This document shows positions 1,901 to 43,192 of a stretch of 47,572 bases of DNA, piece after piece; position 1 is the stretch's first letter; each line of letters begins with the position of its first letter. The DNA is from Lachnospiraceae bacterium (GTDB taxonomy: Bacteria > Bacillota > Clostridia > Lachnospirales > Lachnospiraceae). A program made the position numbers and the translations under genes. The DNA lies in contig JAQYAV010000149.1 in NCBI GenBank assembly GCA_029338675.1, positions 1 to 47,572 of the forward strand, read 5' to 3'. The notes beneath the pieces were generated by a model, which was not told the DNA's origin, did no database searches, and saw only the letters and a list, made by a program, of their open reading frames with translations.

Positions 1901-2320
1901 TTACATAAACTTCTTGCTATCCTTTACGCCTCTTAATCTTGCCATAGCTCTTGCCATGGAAGCCGCAGATACATGATAGTCTTGAATACTTTGTTTTTGT
2001 TGTAGCTGTTCTCTAGCACGTTCTAGAGCTGCCTCAGCTCTAAACTTATCAATCTCTTCTGGTCTTTCAGCAGAATATACTAATATATCTACCTTGTTAT
2101 GCTCTACTTTAACCAATCCAGAAGATACGATTGCATGCTGATATTCTGTTTCACCAGGTAATCTGAATCTTATTTCACCTATCTCAATGGCACATGTCAT
2201 AGGGGCATGATTTGCCATAATTGCCATTTCTCCATCATATCCTGGAAATATAAGAATCTCACACTCTCCATCATAAAACACTCTGTTACAAGATAAGATT
2301 TTTAGCGAAAATGTATTCAA
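1901..2320 (-). CDS. atpC: F1Fo ATP synthase epsilon subunit
   Basis: 139 residues, the normal length for the family. The N-terminal beta-sandwich shows CEILIFPGYDGEMAIMANHAPM and the C-terminal helical hairpin is present (AALERAREQLQQ). Epsilon is part of the central rotor stalk and inhibits ATP hydrolysis. The start is TTG at 2320, chosen because GAGGTGAA lies 8-15 bases upstream and no ATG fits. It begins 16 bases after the atpD stop and is the last gene of the atp operon, followed directly by the terminator. Confidence 0.96.
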   Translation of the reverse strand: MNTFSLKILSCNRVFYDGECEILIFPGYDGEMAIMANHAPMTCAIEIGEIRFRLPGETEYQHAIVSSGLVKVEHNKVDILVYSAERPEEIDKFRAEAALERAREQLQQKQSIQDYHVSAASMARAMARLRGVKDSKKFM

Positions 2321-2336
2321 ATATTATTCACCTCGC

Positions 2337-3743
<1,407 letters not shown>

Positions 3744-3759
3744 TCACTCGCTATATGCT

Positions 3760-4734
3760 CTAAACCTGCTTAACCCTTGTAAGCTGTTTCTTCTTTTTTG
3801 CTTTCTTGTTTCTAAGTGCTTTGGCACCACCAATAACCTCAGTAATCTCTTGAGTAATTGCAGCCTGACGCACTCTGTTGTATTCAATTGATAGCTCTCT
3901 TAACATTGCTTCTGCATTATCAGTTGCAGATTGCATAGCCATCATTCTTGCATTTTCCTCACTTGCAGAGCCCTCAACAAGTGCACCATAAATAAAACCA
4001 GTTACATAGTTATACACAAGGTTCTCTAATACCTTTTTAGGGGAAGGATATATAAGAAAATAATCATTTGCCGAATCTAATTCTTCCAAAGTATTATCAC
4101 TTAAGCCCTTCTTGGCTTCTTCAATCATCTCAGCCTTTACAAAGCTTGCAGTCTTAAGAGGGAGTAATTGAGCTACCTCAACCTCCTCCTTAATTCCATG
4201 AGTCATCTTAGTATAGACAATATAGATTTCATCAATCTTCTCTTCCTTGTATAACTGTACAATATTTTCAGCAATAACTCTGGCTCTATGAACACTTGGG
4301 TTATTTGCCGAAAATCTAAAGTCTTCTTTTACGTTGTACTTCTGCGACTTGAAGAAATGTCTTCCATTCTCTCCAATTGCAAATATTGTATAATCCTCTG
4401 TTTCATCACAGAGTCTCTTTGCTTCTTTAATTACGTTATGGTTATATGCTCCAGCCATTCCTTTATCACTTGTAATAACAATATAACCCTTACTTTTGAC
4501 TTCTTCCTGAAGGTCACTTATTCGGTTATCAAAATAAAGATGTTGCATCTGAGGAAAATGATAAAGAATACTTCTAATCTGTTCCTGCAAACCAAAAAAG
4601 TATGGTTCAGTGTCTTCAAGCTTCTGCTTTGCTTTTCTAAGCTTCATTGAAGACATCATATACATGGCTTTAGTAATCTTCATCGTGTCCTGAATACTGT
4701 TTATTCTTTTTTGAATTTCCTTAGTATTCGCCAT
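3760..4734 (-). CDS. atpG: F1Fo ATP synthase gamma subunit
   Basis: 324 residues when started at ATG 4734 (MANTKEIQKRINSIQDTMKI), which has AAAGGAAG six bases upstream; an ATG seven codons earlier lacks a site. Gamma is the rotating central shaft. Both terminal coiled-coil helices are recognisable: TKAMYMMSSMKLRKAKQKL near the start, and MAMQSATDNAEAML plus YNRVRQAAITQEITEVIGGA near the end. The protein is longer than the usual 285-295 residues, partly from a basic C-terminal tail rich in lysine (KKAKKKKQ). The operon position between alpha and beta is canonical. Confidence 0.96.
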   Translation of the reverse strand: MANTKEIQKRINSIQDTMKITKAMYMMSSMKLRKAKQKLEDTEPYFFGLQEQIRSILYHFPQMQHLYFDNRISDLQEEVKSKGYIVITSDKGMAGAYNHNVIKEAKRLCDETEDYTIFAIGENGRHFFKSQKYNVKEDFRFSANNPSVHRARVIAENIVQLYKEEKIDEIYIVYTKMTHGIKEEVEVAQLLPLKTASFVKAEMIEEAKKGLSDNTLEELDSANDYFLIYPSPKKVLENLVYNYVTGFIYGALVEGSASEENARMMAMQSATDNAEAMLRELSIEYNRVRQAAITQEITEVIGGAKALRNKKAKKKKQLTRVKQV

Positions 4735-4773
4735 AGTTCTTCCTTTCACTGGCACTAAACCAGTTTGATAACA

Positions 4774-6813
4774 CTATATCTGTGCTTCTTTATTTTCTAA
4801 TTGGCCATAGTTTGCTTTAAATTCATTTCCAGCATCAATAATTGCCTCTTTGATATCATCCTCAAGCTTCTTTGAAGAATCCAAGCTGTTAATAATATCT
4901 GAATGTTCGCTTGCAAAGTATTTAAGTAATTCAGTTCTAAAGCTCTTAACCTTGTCTACCTCTATATCACTAAATACATGTGCATTAGCTAAAACAAGCA
5001 TAATAACCTGCTCTGCCATAGTAAATGGCTGTCCCATAGGCTGCTTAAGCAACTCCATAAGAGAACGTCCATGTGCAAGCTGTTTCTTAGTTCCTTCGTC
5101 AAGGTCAGAAGAGAACTGAGTAAATACTTCCATCTCACGATATTGTGCCAAATCAATTCTTATACTTCCTGCTGCCTTCTTCATAGCCTTAGTCTGTGCA
5201 GCACCACCAACTCTCGATACTGACAATCCAACATTAACCGCTGGTCGTTGACCTGCAAAGAACAACTCACTCTCAAGGAATATCTGTCCATCTGTAATAG
5301 ATATAACGTTAGTAGGTATGTATGCAGATAAATCTCCCACCTGAGTTTCAATGATAGGAAGTGCTGTAAGAGAACCGCCACCAGCTTCACTGTTAAGTCT
5401 GCTAGAACGCTCTAACAATCTTGAATGTAAATAGAATACATCACCAGGATATGCCTCACGTCCTGGAGATCTCTCCAACAAAAGTGAAATAGCTCTGTAA
5501 GCTACTGCATGCTTTGACAAATCATCATACACAATAAGAACATCCTTGCCCTTGTACATAAAATACTCAGCAATTGCAGTTCCTGCATATGGAGCAATAT
5601 ATTGTAATGGTGCTGGATCAGAAGCTGTTGAAGAAACAATAACTGTATAATCCATAGCATCATTTTGTTTAAGTGTATTAACTAACTTAGCTATTGTAGA
5701 AGACTTCTGACCAATAGCAACATAAACACAGACAACGTCCTTACCCTTTTGATTAATAATTGTATCAAGGGCAATAGAAGTCTTACCAGTTTGTCTATCT
5801 CCTATAATAAGCTCTCTTTGTCCTCTACCAATTGGGAACATAGAATCTATTGAAAGAATTCCTGTTTCCATAGGAACATTTACAGACTGTCTATCTGTAA
5901 TTCCAGGTGCTTCACATTCAACAGGTCTAAATCCATCTGCTGCAATATCGCCCTTACCATCTAGTGGTGCACCAAGAGCATCTACTATTCTGCCCTTGAA
6001 GGCCTCACCTACTGGAACACCAGCAATCTTTCCAGTACGTACAACTCGGCTACCTTCCTTAACACCTGTATCACGGCCAAATAAGATAACACCTATTTCA
6101 TCTTCTCGAATATCTTGAACCATACCCTTTACACCACAGTCAAATACAACTATCTCACCATAAAAGGCATGATCAATTCCATCAACGTTTGCAATTCCAT
6201 CTCCAACCCAGGTAACAACACCTATCTCTTTATCCTTTATCTCAAGCTCGAATTCATCTATACTTGCCTGAAGAATAGATAGTATATTCTCCTTGCTGTT
6301 GGAATTAATGCCACTCTTTATCTTAGTCTCAAACTGTTCAATACGACCTTGCTCACTCCAGTCATATTCCTTTGCACCAACTCTTAAAATAAATCCACTC
6401 TTAATTGAAGGATCATTCTTAAGCTCTAATTCAACATCATCAGTATGGAATTCTTTTTCAATGAAATTTTTGATTCCCATAAGCTGAGTATCCGATGGTA
6501 CATCAACATATATAAGTTCTGCCACTAAATGGGTAGCATTTTGAGTTTTTTCAATTTGATTAAATGCTTGTACAACCCCATCAAATAAATTAACATCATT
6601 ATTATCACAAAGTAACTGCAAGAAATTACGTATTTCTTTAGGAAATACTTTCTGAATTACTATGTGTTTCTTCTCTATCTCTACTGTGGGATTCTCTAAC
6701 TGTTCTCGAATCTGCGGAACAATTTCAAACAATTCAGCTGTTGAAGTCAATACAGTCTTAGAAATGTTCGAATTGTACAAATCCATTGCATAATCCATTG
6801 TTTTCTGTATCAC
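4774..6813 (-). CDS. ATP synthase delta-alpha fusion (AtpH-AtpA)
   Basis: One open frame of 679 residues encodes two normally separate subunits. Residues 1 to about 168 are delta/OSCP (helical bundle, then SGFILRVGAKEYDWSEQGRI, the usual delta C-terminal motif). Residues from about 173 to 679 are alpha, starting ENILSILQASIDEFEL and carrying GDRQTGKT at 338-345 and LLERSPGREAYPGDVFYLHS. Lengths match an intact delta (about 180) plus alpha (about 500), with no stop and no internal Met at the usual alpha start. Delta links F1 to the peripheral stalk, so the fusion would tether one or more alpha N-termini to it. The start is GTG sharing one base with the atpF stop (TAGTG), after AGGTGATGAATA. 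Confidence 0.95.
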   Translation of the reverse strand: MIQKTMDYAMDLYNSNISKTVLTSTAELFEIVPQIREQLENPTVEIEKKHIVIQKVFPKEIRNFLQLLCDNNDVNLFDGVVQAFNQIEKTQNATHLVAELIYVDVPSDTQLMGIKNFIEKEFHTDDVELELKNDPSIKSGFILRVGAKEYDWSEQGRIEQFETKIKSGINSNSKENILSILQASIDEFELEIKDKEIGVVTWVGDGIANVDGIDHAFYGEIVVFDCGVKGMVQDIREDEIGVILFGRDTGVKEGSRVVRTGKIAGVPVGEAFKGRIVDALGAPLDGKGDIAADGFRPVECEAPGITDRQSVNVPMETGILSIDSMFPIGRGQRELIIGDRQTGKTSIALDTIINQKGKDVVCVYVAIGQKSSTIAKLVNTLKQNDAMDYTVIVSSTASDPAPLQYIAPYAGTAIAEYFMYKGKDVLIVYDDLSKHAVAYRAISLLLERSPGREAYPGDVFYLHSRLLERSSRLNSEAGGGSLTALPIIETQVGDLSAYIPTNVISITDGQIFLESELFFAGQRPAVNVGLSVSRVGGAAQTKAMKKAAGSIRIDLAQYREMEVFTQFSSDLDEGTKKQLAHGRSLMELLKQPMGQPFTMAEQVIMLVLANAHVFSDIEVDKVKSFRTELLKYFASEHSDIINSLDSSKKLEDDIKEAIIDAGNEFKANYGQLENKEAQI

Positions 6814-7295
6814 TATTCATCACCTGCTTTGTTCAAAAATCTATCATATATTGCAGAATTAGAAGTTGCCTTCTCACTGGCAACAACCTTCGCTGTTGCA
6901 TCTATAACCATATCTGCAATTTCTTTCTCTGCATTTTTAAGAATCTGAGCTTTCTGGCTATTTGCATCTGCCTCAGCATCGATTTTAATCTTCTCTGCTT
7001 CTTTTCTTGCAGATTTAACTATACGCTGATATTCTTCATCAGCACTTTTTCTAGCTTCCTGTAATACCTTCTTCTTCTCAGTTTCAGTTTCACTAAGAGC
7101 CTCTTCATATTTTGATTTTAATACATCGGCTTCATTTTGTTTTTCTTTCACTTCATTAAACTGCTTGTCCGCCTCTTCCTGACGCTTCGCAATTATCTTT
7201 TGAACTGGCTTAAACAAAAAGATTCTCATTAAAACGAAAAGGATAAGTAAATTAATTACAGTAAGCGCTATATTCCAAAATTCTAACTGTAACAT
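6813..7295 (-). CDS. atpF: F1Fo ATP synthase b subunit
   Basis: 160 residues with one N-terminal membrane helix (NIALTVINLLILFVLMRIFL), followed by a long charged coiled coil rich in Lys, Glu and Ala. This is the standard peripheral-stalk b subunit. Only one b gene is present, so a b2 homodimer is expected. The stop codon overlaps the GTG start of the delta-alpha fusion by one base. Confidence 0.95.
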   Translation of the reverse strand: MLQLEFWNIALTVINLLILFVLMRIFLFKPVQKIIAKRQEEADKQFNEVKEKQNEADVLKSKYEEALSETETEKKKVLQEARKSADEEYQRIVKSARKEAEKIKIDAEADANSQKAQILKNAEKEIADMVIDATAKVVASEKATSNSAIYDRFLNKAGDE

Positions 7296-7310: not shown

Positions 7311-7535
7311 CTATTTCAACATTACTATTATCATAAGCGCAATTACGAATCCATAAATTGCAGTTGCCTCTGCCAAGGCACATCCAAGAATAAGAAGCTT
7401 AGTGATTTTACCATCAGCCTCTGGTTGTCTTGCTACTGCCTCTGTTGCCTTACCTGTTGCTATACCTATACCTATACCTGCTCCAAGTGCTCCAAGAACA
7501 GCGATACCTGCTCCAATTGCTATTATTGTTCCCAT
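7311..7535 (-). CDS. atpE: F1Fo ATP synthase c subunit, proton type
   Basis: 74 residues forming two membrane helices joined by the polar loop [10 protein letters not shown]. Helix 2 holds the ion-carrying Glu in [10 protein letters not shown]. In sodium-type c subunits such as that of Ilyobacter, helix 1 carries a Gln in the GxGQGYAAGK stretch and helix 2 reads ESTGIY. Here the matching positions are [10 protein letters not shown] and EATAIY, so the Gln and Ser sodium ligands are missing and protons are the likely coupling ion. AAAGGAG precedes ATG 7535. Confidence 0.97.
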
Positions 7536-7581: not shown

Positions 7582-8268
7582 TTACTCCATTGCTTCGCCT
7601 AAATAAAGCGATGTTAAAAATACAAATACATATGCCTGCAATAAGCCATCAAACAAATCAAAATACAAGCTAAATACTACTGGCAAACCAACTGGCATTA
7701 TAGTTTTAATAAGCTCCATAATTACAAATGCACCTATTACATTACCAAAAAGACGCATACAAAGTGATAGTGGCTTAGTAACCACCTCAAGTATGTTGAT
7801 TGGTGCTACAATTGCTATTGGTTCGATAAACTTATGCAACCAGCCTTTTATACCCTTATGATATATTCCGGCTGCCTCAACTAAGATGATGCTCATAAGC
7901 GCAAGGGCTATTGTTACTCTCATGTCCTTTGTTGGTGATTTGAACCCAAAGAGTCCAATAATATTGGAAAAACCAATAAATACCAAAACCGTAGTAAGAT
8001 AACCCACATACGACTTACCTTCTTCTCCTACCATCCCTTCAACAATTCCTGTAAGCTTAGTTACAATTGTTTCTGCAACTGCCTGCCTCTTGCTAATGTT
8101 GCGTACCTTGAGATTTCTTGTCAAAATAATAGAAGCTAAAACTAAAACTCCCATAATAATCCAGGTAACCACAACGGCTTCCGACACTGGAATGCCTCCG
8201 AAGATTGGTATTGTAAAGACTGTTTCACAATTGAGCTCCTCTATAAGAGTGTCTGCTAAATTATCCAA
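7582..8268 (-). CDS. atpB: F1Fo ATP synthase a subunit
   Basis: 228 residues, an integral membrane protein with several hydrophobic helices. It contains the essential stator Arg in [17 protein letters not shown], which faces the c-ring. The start is TTG at 8268 ([12 protein letters not shown] follows); AGAGGAGA is eight bases upstream, while the nearby ATG is out of frame and stops at once. This is the first gene of the operon. No atpI precedes it. A promoter lies 40-70 bases upstream. Confidence 0.95.
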
Positions 8269-8468: not shown

Positions 8469-11336
8469 TTATTTTACGAAATAGCTTTCCTTTGGTCCTA
8501 AATATGATTTCTTAATTGGTTTATCAACTGGATAAATTACAATCCTTTCTAGTACTAAGCCAGCCTCCATTGCGCCAATTGTAATACTAGTTAATCCTTT
8601 TTCAAAAGAAAAAGTATCTTTAGTTACTCTGATTTGATCAAGAGCACCTCTACACCATTCTTTATCCCTATTGCTTCCACCACGATAATTCTCGTCTAAT
8701 ATAACATATGTTTTAGTCTGGTTGTTTGCACATACTAAAGCCTGTAATAATTCTCCATTTCGTAGAGAGTTAGTAGGTGTTACCCATATCTCAACAATAT
8801 AATCTCCACTTATTGGAGCCATAAAGCTATATGTAACCTCTGGCTTGTCATCTTCCTTACCAAACCACGAAGTTGTTGGATAAACCTTTAAACCACTTCC
8901 GCTTCTTCCATAGTTATCAATAATCTGGAAGGCACCTTCTGCCACATCCTTCTTACTTGAAAAATGCTTTGCTTCCATAACAATTGCCTCATTATCAGGA
9001 AGGAAGGTCATAGGTGCTATACCATTTTGATCAACCCTTCTCGCCATCACCAAAATAGATACTGTAGTATCCTCTGCCACAACAAGAAGCTCTACTGTAT
9101 CCTTCTCAAGAGATAAAAGACTTCTATCGCAGGATAATTCAATGACCTCAAGGTCTTTAATGTTTCCGTTTTTCTTACTTATTGATAACCATTTTGGAAG
9201 ATTTTCTCCCACAATGTTTATTGAGTAATCTAGTGTTCCTATTCCATCATTGCTTAATTCAATTTTAACCCTTTCATTACCCTCATACATAAAATCATCA
9301 ACAATAATTTGTGATGGTGAGCCATAATTTTTCACACAGATTCTCTCATCATCAGCCCTTGAAACACTAAGTCTTGCCTTTGCAACTGGCTCAACATACA
9401 TTCTAATTGGATATACATGGCCATCATCATTCCATTTAGTAAATCCAACATGCTCCTCAAGCTCCATGCCCTTCCATTTTCCATCTCTGAACTCACCAAA
9501 TTCTTTTGAAAGCTCTCTATCTTTTTCAATGCATTCTGCTAAAAGCTTTCCGTAATAATTAGCTATAGGTCGTCCCTGTTTAGCATAATGGGCATTCTTT
9601 GTAGCGTATAAATTCATTCTTACAAGATTAATGCTTGTTTTTGCAGGATAGTAAATCATACTGTAATATCCAAGCTTTTGTTCATCAGTCATCATGCTAT
9701 ATAATTCTTCATTTCTACGCTCAATATCTGCTGCAAATGCAAGGATTTTATCTGTTTCTTCGTAATTGCAGGGATGATATATAGATGCATTTAATGCTTC
9801 TGGCCTTCTCTTTGCATTCAGCTCAACAAAGTCTAAATACACACTAGCAATCCTGTTAACTGTTTCTTCATCTGCCCATGAAAAATTCTTTTTTGTCCAC
9901 TGCTTCATGTATTCATCTATCACATTTCTTGAATTAGTTCCCCACTTGTCAAAGTCATAAGCAAGACAAAGAAAATAATTAAGGGCTACTTCATTTCCTT
10001 TTAAATCCCCAACATTAACAATCCATATATCCTTTATTCCATAATCATATGCTTCAGACATCTGTTCCCAGATTGTAGTAAGCTTTGTAGATGGCATCCA
10101 CTCATAAGAAATAGGATCTCCATGATAATCCAAATGATAATACATTCCAAATCCACCTGGATGCTTTCTCATTTCCTCCGTTGGGAGTGTTCTCATATGT
10201 CCAAAATTATCCTCACAGAGCATAAATATTACATCATCAAGCTCCTTCCAATTGCATAAACCTTCTGTATTCTCATCCCCATAAAAATACGCTTCAACCT
10301 CTTTGTACAAAGCCAATAACTGAGGTACCTTAGTCACATCCTCATTAATGCACTCTTTAATAAGTCCTCTTTGAGTAGTTATTATATCCTTTAACAAATC
10401 AATGTTGTCTTTAAGGGTAGCCTCCTCACCAAGCATAGAGCTATCTCTTTCCCCTCGCATTCCAATAGTAACCATATGCCCATACTTGCCACTTCTAATT
10501 AGGGCATCTCTCCAGTATCTTGTTAAGCCCTCGCTATTTGTATAATAATTCCATTCATTTCCATAAATGGAATCCTCACCACGAACAATATCCCATTCCT
10601 CGCTAGCTCTAAGGCAAGGCTCATGATGTGAATATGCAACAGTTATACCATACATATGTGCCAATTCTTCACTTAAGCTGCCTGGACCATCCAAGCAAAA
10701 TGATGAAGTCCACATTGCAGGCCACAGATAATTACCCTTCATTCTAAGCAAGAATTCAAATACCTTATCATACATTTCAGCAGTAAATCCATTATAGTGA
10801 TTGAAGGTCCAATTTCCAAAACATGGCCACTCATCATTAATAAAAAATCCTCTATATCTTACACTTGGTTCCTTTGAAATAATTTCTATATCCTTAGAAA
10901 TAATTATTTCATCTCTAGCTTCAGGAACTACGTCTCCAAAATCACACATTGCAGTAACGCCAATATATTCAGACAAAGCAAATAAACCATATATTGTTCC
11001 AAGCTTATCACTTCCACATATAAGAAGAAGCTTTGAAGCCTCTTTATATGGATTATCAATTAAACTAATAGAATATACCTCACGTTTATTTTCTATGCTC
11101 TTTCTATCAAATAGTCCTTTCTCCTCAAGTTCATTAAGTAATGAACTATTTCCAAGAGTTGCAATCAAAACCTTTGTGGATGCATCATATTTATTTACCA
11201 GCTTAGGTTTCTTTCCTGTAACCTTGCAAAAATCATCTAAAACCTTTGTGGCAATTTTCTTTACGCCTTCAAATGCCTCTTTTTCAACAAGCATATTGAA
11301 TATTGAATTGTTATCAATCAAAGTTATTGTACTCAA
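8469..11336 (-). CDS. GH115 xylan alpha-glucuronidase, cytoplasmic
   Basis: 955 residues from a TTG start at 11336, chosen because GGAGGA lies seven bases upstream; the longer frame from 11399 has no site and would run through the terminator hairpin. GH115 signatures include YRGFFINDEWPCFGNW (about 160-175), RMKGNYLWPAMW (about 198-209) and VGDLKGNEVALNYFL. The C-terminal part is a beta-rich domain, as in other GH115 enzymes. These enzymes remove glucuronic or 4-O-methylglucuronic acid from internal or terminal xylose units of xylan. There is no signal peptide, so it should act on imported oligosaccharides. The acetylesterase gene sits immediately upstream on the same strand. Confidence 0.92.
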   Translation of the reverse strand: MSTITLIDNNSIFNMLVEKEAFEGVKKIATKVLDDFCKVTGKKPKLVNKYDASTKVLIATLGNSSLLNELEEKGLFDRKSIENKREVYSISLIDNPYKEASKLLLICGSDKLGTIYGLFALSEYIGVTAMCDFGDVVPEARDEIIISKDIEIISKEPSVRYRGFFINDEWPCFGNWTFNHYNGFTAEMYDKVFEFLLRMKGNYLWPAMWTSSFCLDGPGSLSEELAHMYGITVAYSHHEPCLRASEEWDIVRGEDSIYGNEWNYYTNSEGLTRYWRDALIRSGKYGHMVTIGMRGERDSSMLGEEATLKDNIDLLKDIITTQRGLIKECINEDVTKVPQLLALYKEVEAYFYGDENTEGLCNWKELDDVIFMLCEDNFGHMRTLPTEEMRKHPGGFGMYYHLDYHGDPISYEWMPSTKLTTIWEQMSEAYDYGIKDIWIVNVGDLKGNEVALNYFLCLAYDFDKWGTNSRNVIDEYMKQWTKKNFSWADEETVNRIASVYLDFVELNAKRRPEALNASIYHPCNYEETDKILAFAADIERRNEELYSMMTDEQKLGYYSMIYYPAKTSINLVRMNLYATKNAHYAKQGRPIANYYGKLLAECIEKDRELSKEFGEFRDGKWKGMELEEHVGFTKWNDDGHVYPIRMYVEPVAKARLSVSRADDERICVKNYGSPSQIIVDDFMYEGNERVKIELSNDGIGTLDYSINIVGENLPKWLSISKKNGNIKDLEVIELSCDRSLLSLEKDTVELLVVAEDTTVSILVMARRVDQNGIAPMTFLPDNEAIVMEAKHFSSKKDVAEGAFQIIDNYGRSGSGLKVYPTTSWFGKEDDKPEVTYSFMAPISGDYIVEIWVTPTNSLRNGELLQALVCANNQTKTYVILDENYRGGSNRDKEWCRGALDQIRVTKDTFSFEKGLTSITIGAMEAGLVLERIVIYPVDKPIKKSYLGPKESYFVK

Positions 11337-11378
11337 CTTATATTCCTCCGAATTATATATTTTAGGTAATACTAAAAT

Positions 11379-11404
11379 AATGCGTGGATGAAAACCCACG
11401 CATT
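11379..11404 (-). terminator. hairpin between acetylesterase and GH115 genes
   Basis: A nine-bp perfect stem, AATGCGTGG/CCACGCATT, with an 8-nt loop lies 11 bases after the esterase stop, followed on the minus strand by ATTTTAGT. The U-run is weak, so it may be a partial terminator or 3' end stabiliser that tunes GH115 output relative to the esterase. Confidence 0.7.
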
Positions 11405-11415
11405 ATCTTAGTCGC

Positions 11416-13110
11416 TTATTCTACATATCCAAAACCTAATATTGTAAATAGCTTATCCTCATCACCAGAAGCCATCTTTATTTCAATTGTATGTTCTTTA
11501 GTTTCTTCTTCAGTGAAGAGAATTGAAGCATGACAATGAGTCCATCCCACCTGTCGTGGATCAAATTCTAATACCTTTTCGCCATCCACATAAATATCTG
11601 CCTTTCCAAACTCTGCTGAGCCTGAGTCCTTACTTATAAGTAATAACGCTTTACAAGTAAGCTTCATTACAAAAGGAGCATTTCCTTTAACATGATGCCA
11701 GTTATATGGGAATACAGGTGTTGCTGCAAATTCATCATCAAACTCAACTAGCTGAAGTTCTTTGTCTTCTTCAGTAAAATCACCTACTGAAACAATATCA
11801 CATTTGTCAAAATTAGTCTTTTTGTCTAACAATCTTACATTAGTAAAATCTATGCCAAATACAGGTTCTACCTTCTCCCAGTCAAATTCCTCATCAAGCT
11901 CCATAGCATCAACAGCTCTAATCAAATTCATAATTGTATCTGCCATAATCTTGTGACCAGCATTAGTAGGATGAAATCTATCATAGAAGAATTGATTCTT
12001 ACTAACTACTCTTCCCTTGCCTAGTTTCTTATAGAACTGTTCTACAACAGCATCTCTCACACTTGCCATTGGAAGCTGATATCTAAAGCCACATGGCGAA
12101 AGTCTCTCCTGAAGATTCCAATCATCAGCAAATACTGCATATATTAACAATACTGCTGTATCCTTTGAAAGAGAAAGAGCCTTTCTAATAAGGCACTCAT
12201 AGCATCTACCCTTTGTCTCGTCATCCTCATCATTAACAGCAAACTCAATCACTACTAAATCAGGATTAACTGTTCCTTCTCTTAATATATCTCTCTCAAA
12301 TCTAATCATTCCAAGCTCTGAAGGTGTTCCACCTACACCTCCCTTAATGAAATGAATATTATCGCCTGTTCCAAATTCGTTCTTGAAATGTTCATAAGTC
12401 TGATAAGCATATGCCTTAGTGTTAATTGGAACAGCACCAGCCCCCTGTGTAATAGAGCCACCAATAAATGCAACTGTTACATCCTGTCCACTTTTAGCCT
12501 TCTCAATTACTCTCTTAAGTCTGTTGTTATTACCAGTTGAAACTAATGATTTCTCAATAATCTTCTTATAATCCTCAGACTCAAAATCTATTTCATTTTC
12601 CTCCTCAATAGGAGGTGCCTCATATCCTTGTCTAAGATAAAGTCTTACATTAACAGATGCATATATCTCAGGCTTAACGAATTCAAATCTAGCCTGTCCA
12701 ACTACATCATCATCACCAGTCCACTGAACATCATCAAACCATACGATATGCTCCATACCATCTGGAATGCAAGATATATTAATTGTTGTGCCAGAGACAT
12801 ATGGATCCTTCTTGCCATACATCTGGAATGCAAAATTAATCTCATTCTCAAGATCATCAGACTCAATGCTAACGCCAATACCTGCAACCATATCTAAAAA
12901 TGTATCTGCATTAACAAGCATATCAAGCATAGCCTCATCCTGAATATTTCCAACTAGATTAGCAAATGTACAAACTCTTCTATCACTAAGATATATTGGC
13001 TGCATACCTTTTCCATCTTCTGTTGGGCTTGCCACTACTTCTTTATTCTTAAATAAATAAAAGCTACTTCCTTTTGCAGTAGGATCCTTTGGTGCATTTC
13101 TTTCTGACAT
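11416..13110 (-). CDS. SGNH/GDSL carbohydrate acetylesterase (likely acetylxylan esterase)
   Basis: 564 residues, no signal peptide. An N-terminal beta-rich domain (about 1-175) precedes an SGNH hydrolase domain: block I VAFIGGSITQGAGA with nucleophile Ser219, an oxyanion Gly in GGVGGT (about 258-262), block III VIEFAVND with Asn293, and block V YDRFHPTNAGH with catalytic Asp377 and His380. A further beta-sandwich follows (about 400-564). SGNH enzymes of this build deacetylate plant polysaccharide fragments. Pairing with a cytoplasmic GH115 points to xylo-oligosaccharides, but mannan or another acetylated sugar cannot be excluded. ATG 13110 is preceded by AGGAGG. The first gene of a two-gene unit. 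Confidence 0.85.
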   Translation of the reverse strand: MSERNAPKDPTAKGSSFYLFKNKEVVASPTEDGKGMQPIYLSDRRVCTFANLVGNIQDEAMLDMLVNADTFLDMVAGIGVSIESDDLENEINFAFQMYGKKDPYVSGTTINISCIPDGMEHIVWFDDVQWTGDDDVVGQARFEFVKPEIYASVNVRLYLRQGYEAPPIEEENEIDFESEDYKKIIEKSLVSTGNNNRLKRVIEKAKSGQDVTVAFIGGSITQGAGAVPINTKAYAYQTYEHFKNEFGTGDNIHFIKGGVGGTPSELGMIRFERDILREGTVNPDLVVIEFAVNDEDDETKGRCYECLIRKALSLSKDTAVLLIYAVFADDWNLQERLSPCGFRYQLPMASVRDAVVEQFYKKLGKGRVVSKNQFFYDRFHPTNAGHKIMADTIMNLIRAVDAMELDEEFDWEKVEPVFGIDFTNVRLLDKKTNFDKCDIVSVGDFTEEDKELQLVEFDDEFAATPVFPYNWHHVKGNAPFVMKLTCKALLLISKDSGSAEFGKADIYVDGEKVLEFDPRQVGWTHCHASILFTEEETKEHTIEIKMASGDEDKLFTILGFGYVE

Positions 13111-13251: not shown

Positions 13252-13860
13252 TTAGTTGTATTCAAGAATGTTGTAATTATTTATTATAATATTTTCATCC
13301 ACAAAATCAATATTAGCTATTATGCCTTTGCCATTTTCAATTTGCCATTCAAAATAGTCCTTATGTGGCTTTGAAAATCTATCCATAATGGCCATAATTG
13401 TACCACCATGTGCAACAATAGCAACATCTTTCTCCTTCCCATATCGACTAACAAAATCCTTTATATACGAAAAAAACGCCTTGCAGCAACGTTCTTCAAA
13501 CTCTCCCTTACTTTCTCCATTAGGAAAAGGGGCTTCACCATTGCTATCTATGTAAGCCTGATATTCTGCGTAATCTTTCAATTCCTCGTAATTTTTATAT
13601 TCGTAATCTCCAAAATTACATTCCTTAAAGTTATCTACAACCTTCTGAGGCAGCCCTCCTAATATTGCAGTTGCAGTATCAACACATCTTGCCATAGGAC
13701 TTACCGCAACCTCAGTAAGCATCATATTGTTCTTAAATTCCCATTTATATTCTTTTAATCTGTCTAATTCCTCTCTAAGAACACCCTCGTTAGTTGTTCC
13801 AACATATCTTCTTTCTACATTTCCCTTAGTCTTTCCATGTCTGATTAATACTATTTTCAT
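13252..13860 (-). CDS. cobC: histidine phosphatase, probable alpha-ribazole phosphatase
   Basis: 202 residues of the phosphoglycerate-mutase-like family. The phosphate-accepting His is in IVLIRHGKTKGN, followed by SPMARCVDTA and the second His in VAIVAHGGTIMAI. In cobalamin synthesis CobC removes the 5'-phosphate of alpha-ribazole-phosphate or of adenosylcobalamin-phosphate. The role is assigned from context: the start overlaps the preceding mini-cobU stop by 4 bases (ATGA) in a cobT-U-S operon. Sequence alone would allow a general phosphatase. Confidence 0.8.
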   Translation of the reverse strand: MKIVLIRHGKTKGNVERRYVGTTNEGVLREELDRLKEYKWEFKNNMMLTEVAVSPMARCVDTATAILGGLPQKVVDNFKECNFGDYEYKNYEELKDYAEYQAYIDSNGEAPFPNGESKGEFEERCCKAFFSYIKDFVSRYGKEKDVAIVAHGGTIMAIMDRFSKPHKDYFEWQIENGKGIIANIDFVDENIIINNYNILEYN

Positions 13861-14204
13861 TTAATTTTCTCACCTATGCCACACACAACGCGAATTACTG
13901 TTTCTGAAGTCTCTGCCAATCTGCAGTTTATTCGCCCATTTGTCTCTCGAAACTTACGTTCAAATTCATCCACGGGAACGACTCCATATCCAACCTCATC
14001 ACTAATAACAACAAGCTTATCCAAGCTGCCATATTCACTAATATGAAGTAACAATCGCTTATCTAACTCTGCAAATGAATCTAAGCCTTTTTTAAGTTCT
14101 TCTCTAACAATACTCTGATATCCATTTATCACCACATAATCTGGAAAATTATCTTCTGCATATTTCATTTTGCCCTGATAAGCTCCACCAACAATAAAAA
14201 CCAT
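13857..14204 (-). CDS. mini CobU-like P-loop protein (115 residues)
   Basis: It begins MVFIVGGAYQGKMKYAE, a P-loop at the normal CobU position. It ends with VISDEVGYGVVP, then RKFRETNGRINCRLAETSE and RVVCGIG, which match the C-terminal half of CobU (consensus NEVGxGIVP, FRDxxGRxNQxLA). The middle third of a normal CobU (about 180-200 residues) is missing, including the RIxxHxxxR segment with the guanylylated His. It may therefore keep cobinamide-kinase-like nucleotide binding without guanylyltransferase activity, or act with the full CobU encoded two genes upstream. The frame is intact and translationally coupled to cobC. Its AGGAGG lies 19 bases from the ATG inside a hairpin. Confidence 0.8.
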   Translation of the reverse strand: MVFIVGGAYQGKMKYAEDNFPDYVVINGYQSIVREELKKGLDSFAELDKRLLLHISEYGSLDKLVVISDEVGYGVVPVDEFERKFRETNGRINCRLAETSETVIRVVCGIGEKIK

Positions 14205-14212
14205 ATTCTTAT

Positions 14213-14249
14213 ATATATTTTATCCTCCTACCAGGATTATAAAATATAT
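14213..14249 (-). promoter_or_regulatory. hairpin enclosing the ribosome site of mini-cobU
   Basis: An 11-bp perfect stem, ATATATTTTAT/ATAAAATATAT (14213-14223, 14239-14249), continues into TCCT/AGGA around a 3-nt loop. The AGGAGG of the downstream gene is in the inner stem and would be hidden when folded. The cobS to mini-cobU gap (14205-14336) also holds the hairpins TTTATGC/GCATAAA and CAACT/AGTTG. Translation control or transcript processing is an inference. Confidence 0.5.
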
Positions 14250-14336
14250 GCTCCTTTCTAATGTGATATATTTATCTACAACACTTCGCCAACTACCCAG
14301 TTGTCGTTTATGCTAAAGCATAAAAGGGTATAAAGG

Positions 14337-15101
14337 CTACATTATCAAGCTTGTAACAATAATAACCCCTAGCTCACAAAGCTGAAGAAAATAGCCAGCC
14401 AAATCACCTGTTACCCCACCAAAGGTTTTCTGTGACATTACATAATAGTAAGCAAGGACAATAAAGCCAACTGCCACTACAGCTGCCCCCATCACTATAT
14501 CAATGCATAAGAATGCTATAACGCACACAAAAAGCTCCACAAATAAAACTGGTTTTGATTTATTATCAGACATCTCCTTTGCACTTGCCAACATTCCATC
14601 TTTTTTAGCTTTTGGAAAAGTCATCACTGACAAGCCACTTAATATTCTCGAAAAAACAAATCCCACTGCATAAATCGCATATTGTTTTACAATGATATCT
14701 CCTTTTATTAACTCATAGGCAAATGCAAAATATAGCAGAAAATATACGATTCCATATATTATTGCAAATGCACCAGCGTGTGGATCCTTTAATATCTTAA
14801 GTTTTTCTTCTTTTGGTTTATATGAGCTTTTGGCATCAACTGTATCCATATATCCATCCATATGAATTCCACCTGTAATTAATATAGGTAAAACAGTCAT
14901 AATAGCAGACAAAGCAAGAATAGATATATTGCCAAAATACATTTTTATAAAATAAATAACTGCAAATTCTACCCCACCGATAAATACTCCAATAAACGGA
15001 AAAAAACACATTATATATTTCATATATTTTTTATCCCATTTTACCTTTGGCATAGGCACACGTGAATATGTTGAAAATGCCATTATCAACGATTTTATCA
15101 T
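14337..15101 (-). CDS. cobS: adenosylcobinamide-GDP ribazoletransferase (cobalamin synthase)
   Basis: 254 residues, a polytopic membrane protein. Family marks are the Asp-rich GGIHMDGYMDTVDAKSSY near 95-115, then KILKDPHAGAFA, and the C-terminal FGGVTGDLAGYFLQLCEL. CobS joins adenosylcobinamide-GDP to alpha-ribazole (or its phosphate) at the membrane. Its start directly follows the cobU stop. Confidence 0.95.
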   Translation of the reverse strand: MIKSLIMAFSTYSRVPMPKVKWDKKYMKYIMCFFPFIGVFIGGVEFAVIYFIKMYFGNISILALSAIMTVLPILITGGIHMDGYMDTVDAKSSYKPKEEKLKILKDPHAGAFAIIYGIVYFLLYFAFAYELIKGDIIVKQYAIYAVGFVFSRILSGLSVMTFPKAKKDGMLASAKEMSDNKSKPVLFVELFVCVIAFLCIDIVMGAAVVAVGFIVLAYYYVMSQKTFGGVTGDLAGYFLQLCELGVIIVTSLIM

Positions 15102-15716
15102 TTATATTTCTTCTTTCTTTTTTAATTCTATAGGTATTCCACATACTACCTCATAGGATTTTTCTGATAGTTCAGTAAGACGTCTATTTATATATGCCAG
15201 ATAATCTGCATAGCGAATCGTTTCTTCGTATTCGTTATTTCTATCAATATATATTTCATTTGTAACAACTACATATGCTTTTACTTTTTTTGACATATTG
15301 AATATTGGCTCAACAATGTACTCTTCAATTTTACTTTTCCATTTTGCTTGACTAAATTCCTGTCCTATCTTATAAGAATTAAGTCTTCCCTCGTCAAGAT
15401 ACATTTCATTAGCCAGCAAATTAGACATACATTCACTTAAAAGAACCTTTTCACCATCTATAGCCTCATTGCATAGCAACGATGAAATATTGCAAAAGCA
15501 CTCAATTGTTTCAAAGCCTTTTCCTGCTCTTTGACATTTATGTCTATCTATTCTTTGTTTTGTTTCCTCATCCATTACCCCTGGCTTACCAAAAATGTAT
15601 GGGTACATATGTGCAATATAATACATATTAGACGAAGCACTATTTAATTCAACACACAGCGTCTCTGCAAAAGCTGACTTGCCACTTCCACTTCCTCCTG
15701 TTACCAGATATAACAT
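15102..15716 (-). CDS. cobU: adenosylcobinamide kinase / cobinamide-phosphate guanylyltransferase
   Basis: 204 residues. The P-loop is VTGGSGSGKSAFAE at the N-terminus and RIDRHKCQRAGKGFETIE carries the guanylyl-accepting His (H59). The C-terminal motif has drifted: the usual NEVGxGIVP reads TNEIYIDRN, though the later YINRRLTELSEKSYEVVCGIP is recognisable. It thus keeps the kinase loop and catalytic His but has a degenerate C-terminal motif, the reverse of the mini CobU downstream. It lies between cobT and cobS with no gaps. Confidence 0.9.
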   Translation of the reverse strand: MLYLVTGGSGSGKSAFAETLCVELNSASSNMYYIAHMYPYIFGKPGVMDEETKQRIDRHKCQRAGKGFETIECFCNISSLLCNEAIDGEKVLLSECMSNLLANEMYLDEGRLNSYKIGQEFSQAKWKSKIEEYIVEPIFNMSKKVKAYVVVTNEIYIDRNNEYEETIRYADYLAYINRRLTELSEKSYEVVCGIPIELKKKEEI

Positions 15717-16793
15717 TTACAAAGCTTCCTCCTCAAATCTCTCATATGCCTCAATGTTATAATTGTCAAATGTTCCCATGTTGTTGTATATAGAAACAGC
15801 CATATCAAGCATTGGCATAAGTGCAATAGCACCTGTTCCTTCTCCAAGACGAAGTCCACCATCTATCATAGGCGATACTCCTATTTTTTCTAAAGCAAGT
15901 TTACCTGTCATCTCCCCAGACACATGAGAAGCAATCATATAATCAGCACAGGCTGCATCTATATTTACTGCGCACAAAGCAGAAACGGAAGATATTGCCC
16001 CATCAATTATTATGGGAAGCTTATACCTTAATCCACCTAAAAATAAGCCCACCATTCCGGCTATTTCTAAACCACCCACTGCAGAAATAAGCTTATACAT
16101 ATCCTGATTATAATTATCTTTGACTCTTTCAATTGCTTTTTTTACTACAAGCAATTTCTTATTTAAGCCTGACTTACTTAATCCAGCACCTACTCCAGTT
16201 ACTTCCTCTGCTGACTTATCCAGCAACACCCCTGCCAAAATGCTAGTAGGCGTAGTATTTCCTATGCCCATCTCACCAGTGGCAATTATTTTGTAGCCTT
16301 TATCCTTTAAGGCTCCAACAATTTCTATACCTGTTTCAATAGCCTTCTTACATTCCTCAATGCTCATAGCATCTTCAATAGCAAGGTTATTTGTTCCACG
16401 TTTTATTTTTCTATTTATTACTTTATTGGTAACTAGCTCATTTTCCTGATAGTAATCAGTGTCCATGCCAATATCTACAGTAAATACATCTACATTGGCA
16501 TAATTACACATCTGATTAACTGTTGATTTACCTTCTGTAAAATTCTCTGCAACAATTCTTGTAACCTCACTTGTTGTCTGTGTAACTTGCTCGGCAACAA
16601 CACCATGATCTGCACACATAATAACTAAGGCTCTTTTGTCAATTCTTAGACCCTTTGCTGAGCCATATATTCCACATAGCTTAGCAACATCATCCTCCAT
16701 TACACCAAGGCTTGCTATTGGTTTGGCTATATTATCCCAATTCATTTTAGCCTCTATGACTATTTTTTTAATGTTTTCATCTACTATTTTCAT
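15717..16793 (-). CDS. cobT: nicotinate-nucleotide-dimethylbenzimidazole phosphoribosyltransferase
   Basis: 358 residues, normal length. It activates the lower-ligand base by transferring phosphoribose from nicotinate mononucleotide, giving alpha-ribazole phosphate. Motifs: VIMCADHGVVAEQVTQT, ATGEMGIGNTTPTS with the substrate loop, the AAIS-type stretch IIDGAISSVSALCAVN, and near the C-terminus GGLRLGEGTGAIALMP with the catalytic Glu. No cobalamin riboswitch is evident upstream; corA ends only 29 bases before the start. Confidence 0.96.
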   Translation of the reverse strand: MKIVDENIKKIVIEAKMNWDNIAKPIASLGVMEDDVAKLCGIYGSAKGLRIDKRALVIMCADHGVVAEQVTQTTSEVTRIVAENFTEGKSTVNQMCNYANVDVFTVDIGMDTDYYQENELVTNKVINRKIKRGTNNLAIEDAMSIEECKKAIETGIEIVGALKDKGYKIIATGEMGIGNTTPTSILAGVLLDKSAEEVTGVGAGLSKSGLNKKLLVVKKAIERVKDNYNQDMYKLISAVGGLEIAGMVGLFLGGLRYKLPIIIDGAISSVSALCAVNIDAACADYMIASHVSGEMTGKLALEKIGVSPMIDGGLRLGEGTGAIALMPMLDMAVSIYNNMGTFDNYNIEAYERFEEEAL

Positions 16794-41928: not shown

Positions 41929-42915
41929 ATGAGTAATTTGGAGCATAGAAAGGGAGCTAGAAAGTTTAAGTTTGTTGATGAAAATGGAGTAGCTTTGGCA
42001 AATTCTAAGGTTAGTGTGAAGCAGGTAAATCATGAGTTTTTATTTGGATGTGGTGCTTTTGATTTTCTTCCTACAACAGAAGATTCAGATATGGGAAACG
42101 TAGATTTTTATCAGGATAAGGTTGTTCCTAAGAAGGAATTTTATCAGGATAGAGTAAATAAATGGCTAGATGTATGTTAATGAAGTATGATAATAATACT
42201 ATTTTAAGCAAGCAGCTTGATAGAATTAATCGTGAAGTTACAAACTTCAAGGGTGTTGTTGATATCTGGGATGTTATTAACGAAGTTGTTATAATGCCTA
42301 TTTTTGACAAATATGATAATGCTATTACAAGAATCTGCAAGGATCTTGGACGTGTCAGACTAATTAAAGAGGTATTTGATGCAGCAAAAGCAGCAAATCC
42401 AGATGCTGTCTTACTAATAAACGACTTTAACTTATCTGAAAACTACAAAATCTTAATTGATGGATGCTTAAATGCAGGCGTTCCGATTTCAGCAATTGGT
42501 CTTCAGACACATCAGCATCAAGGTTATATGGGCAGAAAGAAATTAGAAGAAGTATTAGATCGATTCTCTTCATTTGGTCTTCCACTTCATTTTACTGAAA
42601 ATACTTTAGTTTCTGGACATATTATGCCTGCCGACATCGTTGACTTAAATGATTATCAGGTTGATGAATGGCCAAGTACTCCTGAAGGAGAGGAACGACA
42701 GAAAAATGAGTGGAAGGAAATGTACGAAATTTTATTTGAGCATCCACTTGTTGAGGCAATTACAGGCTGGGATTTTGCTGATGGTGCTTGGCTACATGCT
42801 CCAAGTGGTCTAATACGAGAAGACAATACATTAAAACCAGCTTATCACGAATTAAAGCGTTTAATCCATAAAGAATGGCACACTGAAGACACATTAAAAA
42901 CAGATGAAAATTGTT
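41929..42915 (+). pseudogene. GH10 endo-1,4-beta-xylanase, internally deleted and 3'-truncated
   Basis: ATG 41929, with AAAGGAGGAG, opens a GH10-like N-terminus (VNHEFLFGCGAFDFLP) up to DRVNKWLDVC and a stop. The next frame resumes at LMKYDNNTILSKQLDRINRE, having lost the block of about 50 residues that normally holds the HPLxWH motif. The acid/base motif VVDIWDVINEVV and the nucleophile motif LHFTENTLVSG are kept, as is EAITGWDFADGAWLHAPSGL. The tail after WHTEDTLKTDEN is replaced by sequence from the 32-bp inverted repeat at 42921. There is no signal peptide. It cannot encode an active barrel. Confidence 0.85.
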
Positions 42916-42920
42916 TGTTT

Positions 42921-42952
42921 GGGGACGTTGCTTTTGTCACGAAGACTGTCCC
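42921..42952 (+). repeat. left 32-bp inverted repeat (REP-like)
   Basis: GGGGACGTTGCTTTTGTCAC then GAAGACTGTCCC. Ends can pair as GGGAC/GTCCC. Partner at 43913-43944. Confidence 0.9.
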
Positions 42953-43192
42953 TATGGTCAATATAGAGTAACTATATATTCACTCTATATTGACTACTCA
43001 AATCTGATTTTCTTTCTAAGCATCTTATTTGCAAGTCGCATAGTTTACTGTTTTGAAAACAACGAATAAAAAGTTCACCTTCCACTACATTTTCAAAGCC
43101 AATTTTTGTTATATCTTAAAGTAGTTCTACATCTGCTAAAAAATATGTCAAACGTTCTTCAAGGTTGTAGCATCTCTTTCATGGTACAAGAC

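Follow-up and report, generated by a model that had tools for sequence, protein, structure and literature searches.

How can an F-type ATP synthase be built when its delta subunit is encoded as one protein with alpha? This question is raised by the window, the whole 47,572-nucleotide stretch of Lachnospiraceae DNA analysed here, which is contig C149 of a draft genome of 2.85 Mb (171 contigs, 99.97% complete). The first-pass annotation had set out a dilemma for such a fusion: three delta domains in every F1, processing of the protein, or an internal translation start that frees alpha. The dilemma was rightly posed; internal start signals lie below background, and the sequence favours three uncut copies. 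We consider it likely that the locus encodes a working F-type ATP synthase with delta permanently joined to alpha, and that the protein, uncut, would place three delta domains in each F1.

The fusion gene (4774..6813, minus strand) is a single frame of 679 codons that runs from 6813 to 4774 without a stop through a whole delta/OSCP and a whole alpha. It opens with GTG and overlaps by one base the last base of the TAG stop of the b gene. The delta part begins with the N-terminal domain (NTD; about codons 1-92, 6538..6813), which is matched by the OSCP profile from position 25-26 and scores 140 bits against an NTD model whose seed contains the window sequence itself. The b-binding C-terminal domain (CTD; about codons 93-166, 6316..6537) follows, placed by Pfam and by alignment, and it aligns with the engineered chain 9jc1. 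The delta/OSCP profile PF00213 was covered over positions 26-171 of 172, so both delta domains are present in the window. A short linker (about codons 167-175, 6289..6315), whose last two codons are AAGGAG with no close in-frame ATG, GTG or TTG behind them, leads into a complete alpha subunit that includes the N-terminal helix (4774..6294), recognised by its helix pattern and by NCBIfam atpA TIGR00962 (753.8 bits against a cut-off of 484.45, over residues 174-669 of the fusion). Pfam places OSCP at residues 22-164 (E 3e-19), ab_N at 196-261, ab at 318-533 and ab_C at 540-665. These assignments bear out the first-pass claim of a complete delta and a complete alpha in one frame of 679 residues, here assigned to the minus strand. 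Its remark that alpha has no start codon of its own also holds, as there is no in-frame ATG, GTG or TTG after codon 112 as far as about codon 209, the end of the region listed.

The gene lies in a complete F-type operon on the minus strand, in the order a-c-b-[delta-alpha]-gamma-beta-epsilon, in which all eight subunits are encoded. Ahead of the fusion stand a (228 aa, 7582..8268; PF00119), c (74 aa, 7311..7535; PF00137, by sequence without the Na+-type Gln) and b (160 aa, 6813..7295; PF00430), and behind it gamma (331 aa, 3760..4755; PF00231), beta (464 aa, 2337..3731; PF00006) and epsilon (139 aa, 1901..2320; PF02823 and PF00401), all on the same strand. The genome holds a second F-type operon on contig C163, absent from the first-pass annotation, with a separate delta (179 aa) and a canonical alpha that is 56% identical to the fused one. 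The c subunit of the window carries the motifs GIGIG and AEAT and that of C163 carries GIGQG and AETT, which we take to be the sodium-type signature; the window enzyme is accordingly predicted, from motifs, to be proton-coupled beside a sodium-type second enzyme. An N-ATPase can be the second F-type operon of a genome. Membership of the window operon in that family was considered and rejected: N-ATPases are described in the available part of PMC5706428 as lacking delta, which is present in the fusion, and the fused alpha scores 614.5 bits against a TIGR03324 cut-off of 750.5. Elsewhere in the window, by eye, a MATE-type transporter near the contig end (326-938) is seemingly split in two frames, either a broken gene or a sequencing slip; large glycosidase-like and esterase-like genes and a short xylanase-like fragment (8469-13110 and 42162-42971) would fit a plant-fibre degrader; and a series of cobalamin-biosynthesis-like genes occupies 13252-16793.

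The fusion is widespread among relatives. Within the genus, the full fusion occurs in 4 of 37 genomes and a form without the delta NTD (hereafter NTD-less) in 13 more, among the matches listed; the other full fusions (G019, assembled as one contig, G025 and G002) have the same build at 74-75% identity. Also among the matches listed, a canonical alpha gene accompanies the fusion in 16 of the 17 fused genus genomes, including that of the window, and the seventeenth (G033) has low-identity fragments alone of another alpha. The first-pass annotation could not tell how common the fusion is and had proposed a search across Lachnospiraceae. In a drawn subset of 396 family genomes, each at least 80% complete and with matches ordered by E-value, at least 78 genomes from 72 of 317 genera encode delta and alpha in one frame. 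Among the matches listed, these comprise 28 full, 48 NTD-less and 2 contig-cut fusions, full and NTD-less being told apart manually by the length of the frame and the range of the match, and 8 further genomes of the same lineage have stops between delta and alpha. Outside the family, the fusion is present in no fewer than nine families of the class: in a class-wide sample, 27 of 393 genomes reached E 1e-40 or better, and 24 of these matches have no stops (12 in the same family and 12 in nine others). In the phylum sample, 19 of 398 genomes passed E 1e-30, of which 5 are fused, all in the same class, 13 are unfused neighbours read through stops and 1 is a plain alpha. A scan of named genomes returned at least 530 stretches encoding relatives of the query, the best 80 of which were classified. 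The NTD-less form was also observed in some genomes that are titled as named strains and not as metagenome-assembled genomes (Lachnospiraceae AC2031, LC2019, FE2018, NC2008 and NK4A179), and these carriers are probably culturable.

The relatives form a graded set of operons, from a c b delta alpha gamma beta epsilon with separate genes (8 loci, L155-L162) through the full fusion to the NTD-less fusion. The NTD is kept in all 8 unfused deltas, and on rechecking, the OSCP match extends into it in 28 of 28 full fusions. OSCP also matched 42 of 44 NTD-less fusions, with G075 and G208 giving none at E 0.01; at L018, which has no Pfam OSCP match, the delta CTD was placed by alignment. A separate NTD gene was sought near NTD-less fusions, and the NTD profile gave no match to E 1 either in frame or up to 700 bases upstream, its best match over L175-L190 being no better than E 1.7. 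Pfam OSCP matches that run upstream through stops in G093, G353 and G166 were rejected as NTDs, because the NTD profile gave them no backing and the b gene lies there; the OSCP alignment likewise extends into b in G093, G166 and G098, with the NTD profile match absent there.

In the tree, the NTD-less rows make up one large clade, with further cases interspersed between full fusions. The members of this clade that were mapped have a long a subunit (272-307 aa where found) and a long precursor of c if c was found, and the interspersed cases have short a and c where mapped. A c subunit with a signal-like N-terminal extension, in precursors of 119-145 aa, was observed at L039, L040, L043, L044, L099, L111, L126, L139, L153 and others. 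Two genomes have unusual inventories. G170 carries three F-type alphas, on C34, C51 (L162) and C10: a canonical one, an unfused alternative and an NTD-less fusion. In G098, the only genome of its genus available for comparison, b, delta CTD and alpha make up one 778-aa frame (L178, 3156-5492) that is the sole F-type alpha of the genome; such a chain would impose a 1:1:1 ratio of b, delta and alpha, and as a single case it could be an assembly slip.

The junction itself has an engineered counterpart. In Bacillus PS3, residues 105-178 of delta were joined to alpha to give the deltaDeltaN-alpha FoF1 (Ueno et al., 2025; PMC12229609, seen in part, as throughout). The best solved-structure match to the window junction is 9jc1_I, a chain named delta plus alpha, and from this name and its content 9jc1 appears to be that construct. 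The alignment covers 157 query residues with one gap of a single residue; when the whole window protein is the query, 9jc1 ranks fourth by E-value, behind plain alphas. From the serine of YDxS to VGDGI there are 50 residues in the window and 51 in 9jc1. Of the 26 full fusions counted, 24 have 49-56 residues there and the remaining two have 71 and 81 (L174 left out of the count). An AF2 model of the NTD-less L099 protein (mean pLDDT 73.6) contains elements like those of the delta CTD, a short linker modelled with lower confidence and the alpha N-helix; the structure comparison lies mostly over alpha (model residues 101-580) with little on the delta part, and 9jc1 is not among the best 50 matches listed.

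Whether the fused protein has to share its duties was examined in 80 of 87 genomes (G175, G119, G105, G381, G237, G195 and G197 being left out), with thresholds of E 1e-60 for alpha and E 0.01 for OSCP. The fusion is present in 73 of the 80, which cover 72 of the at least 78 fused family genomes, and in 26 of the 73 neither another F-type alpha nor another OSCP match was detected beside it. Of these sole carriers, 9 have the full and 17 the NTD-less form, and 22 are at least 90% complete; G379, with one alpha match and a second delta near a contig end, was kept out of the 26. The fused protein can thus probably serve alone.

Several explanations would leave F1 with its usual complement, or the fusion without substance. 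A sequencing or assembly error that fuses two genes might be suspected in a draft of 171 contigs; error and chance are ruled out by the relatives, in which the same fusion appears in the one-contig genome G019 and fusions recur in at least 78 of 396 family genomes, and the probability left to error is negligible. An internal translation start could instead release alpha, so that one delta-alpha would assemble with two plain alphas. All 8 unfused relatives and all 10 canonical genes have a start codon with a Shine-Dalgarno (SD) match of at least 4 nt at the alpha position, as against 1 of the 28 full and 2 of the 89 NTD-less fusions; the background, taken from windows of equal size at other places in these genes, is 0.06-0.08. 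The window does have AAGGAG at codons 174-175, and the codons that follow, ATA and ATT, rarely initiate, so that an unusual start is conceivable. Over a wider region, in-frame start codons occur in 13 of 28 full fusions (background 0.83) and 61 of 89 NTD-less ones (0.81), and starts with SD-like matches in 5 of 28 (0.24) and 14 of 89 (0.27); both are thus rarer than background in either class, as are the alpha-position signals against 0.06-0.07, and we judge internal initiation very unlikely. At the delta start, by comparison, the loci in which b was found have an SD of at least 4 nt in 23 of 26 full fusions and in two NTD-less sets (11 of 14 and 80 of 84), and this start overlaps the b stop or lies within 5 bases of it in 24 full and in 11 and 77 NTD-less cases.

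Proteolysis could part delta from alpha after synthesis or assembly, for which a short linker of variable sequence is available. The linker is, however, held to a narrow length in nearly all full fusions, and a cut delta without its NTD would presumably lose its known hold on F1, a difficulty for the 17 sole-enzyme genomes with the NTD-less form; this processing appears unlikely. Finally, because the window genome also encodes a canonical alpha, a mixed F1 would be possible there, in which fused alpha and the canonical alpha of the second operon combine to leave one delta per F1. Both genes do occur together in at least 16 of the 17 fused genus genomes, including that of the window, but the 26 genomes with no other F-type alpha and the 56% identity of the two alphas in the window genome make such mixing highly improbable.

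The uncut fusion is also illuminated by the history of its NTD. An alpha tree of 66 hand-picked rows, with the fusion columns removed and bootstraps not fully settled (an earlier tree had 55 of 101 NTD-less rows after redundancy filtering), was compared with a beta+gamma set; L164, whose alpha pattern failed, is missing from the 66 rows and from the earlier tree, and L175 and L183, for which no beta was found, are absent from beta+gamma. In the alpha tree, NTD-less rows stand beside full ones in L163 with L183 (support 95/92), L168 with L170 and L175 (99/94), L060 with L071 (100/86) and L067 with L172 (100/97). A single clade of all NTD-less rows, that is a single NTD loss, was rejected (p-AU 0.0005 for alpha and 4e-11 for beta+gamma), and state changes among fused rows number 10 and 5, respectively. 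The trees indicate that the delta NTD was lost several times among fusions. A single fusion event fits the alpha data (p 0.518) and is mildly rejected by beta+gamma (p 0.023). Where the NTD is retained, its dN/dS of 0.10 (L009-L011) and 0.09 (L010-L011) points to purifying selection, and the value of 0.30 for the distant full pair L001-L052, equal to that of the delta CTD of the same pair, suggests weaker constraint between distant full fusions. The repeated loss is probably explained by the covalent link having replaced the anchoring job of the NTD. In every class the N-terminal helix of alpha has kept its pattern; in ordinary enzymes this helix touches delta (PMC12229609).

A mechanism can be proposed from these observations. 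The delta start, which is coupled to the end of b, carries translation signals and the alpha position does not; the 679-aa chain would then enter F1 uncut in the place of alpha, bringing three delta domains into each F1. Every delta CTD, lying by its own alpha, could offer a b2 stalk a place to dock, and an a subunit could come with each stalk, as in the engineered PS3 enzyme. In the full-length form, one NTD probably occupies the central seat on F1, which makes one to three stalks possible for the window enzyme. The first-pass annotation had called the fusion a structural problem for a well-known machine; this problem is smaller than claimed, given that the engineered delta(CTD)-alpha assembles and works, carrying as many as three stalks and three a subunits (PMC12229609).

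How many stalks the uncut fusion holds is a separate matter, and the translation signals of the operon cannot distinguish one from three. The uncut protein could well support a single stalk, with one NTD filling the central concavity of F1, only the CTD of that copy holding b2 and the remaining two delta copies idle; compatible with the uncut fusion, this arrangement has a little less than an even chance in our view. It draws on the NTD being retained in 28 family genomes (among the matches listed) under the constraint measured for L009-L011, and on the argument that the NTD restricts stalks to one (PMC12229609). Against it, repeated loss suggests that the NTD is dispensable once fused, and three CTDs would still be available. 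Even in the engineered enzyme a single stalk was the most frequent state, cryo-EM particles with 0, 1, 2 and 3 stalks making up 15, 51, 26 and 8% (PMC12229609). More tentatively, the window enzyme and its fused relatives may be natural multi-stalk synthases, in which three CTDs hold two or three b2 stalks with their a subunits, the fusion having come first and repeated NTD loss having then opened the remaining stalk sites. For the NTD-less relatives, the description as natural multi-stalk enzymes is plausible.

If the multi-stalk proposal is true, the proton-to-ATP ratio would be two or three times the usual, allowing fermenting bacteria to make ATP at very low membrane energy. V/A-type enzymes have a multi-stalk plan, and the fusions would represent convergence on it. 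Every ATP synthase to date has only one a subunit, and what ATP costs in protons is set by how many stalks and a subunits there are; in the engineered PS3 enzyme, the ratio was 5.8 compared to 3.0 and balance was reached at 68 instead of 133 mV (PMC12229609). With a common fusion, sole-enzyme carriers and a graded series of separate, full and NTD-less forms, natural multi-stalk enzymes become directly testable.

The openly licensed literature yielded one paper on a delta-alpha fusion, PMC12229609, and no report of the full-length form; neither 'fusion' nor 'fused' occurs in the available text of PMC4478896 on butyrivibrios. What is new relative to that literature is the fusion with its NTD intact, how widely fusions occur, the recurrence of NTD loss and the many genomes without another F-type alpha, and the NTD-less fusion itself is already in print (PMC12229609). 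A 2017 survey lists, in its available part, Clostridia operons without delta (Niu et al., 2017; PMC5709465), some of which may hide delta inside alpha.

Among known systems, the b-delta fusion of Mycobacterium and Gordonia (Niu et al., 2017; PMC5709465) is likewise a natural delta fusion, but to b and not to alpha. Closer are three natural NTD-less delta-alpha fusions named as possible multi-stalk enzymes in PMC12229609 (Acidaminococcus fermentans, UniProt G4Q3K6 and A0A1I2C5T3), which by description resemble the NTD-less relatives of the window enzyme; the latter differs in keeping its NTD, and multi-stalk architecture is a prediction for all three. The engineered PS3 enzyme, in which the multi-stalk state has been measured, is man-made, lacks the delta NTD that the window enzyme retains and has had the epsilon C-terminal domain removed as well. 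Nevertheless, it shares with the window enzyme, known from its gene alone, a delta CTD covalently attached to the alpha N-terminus through nearly the same linker.
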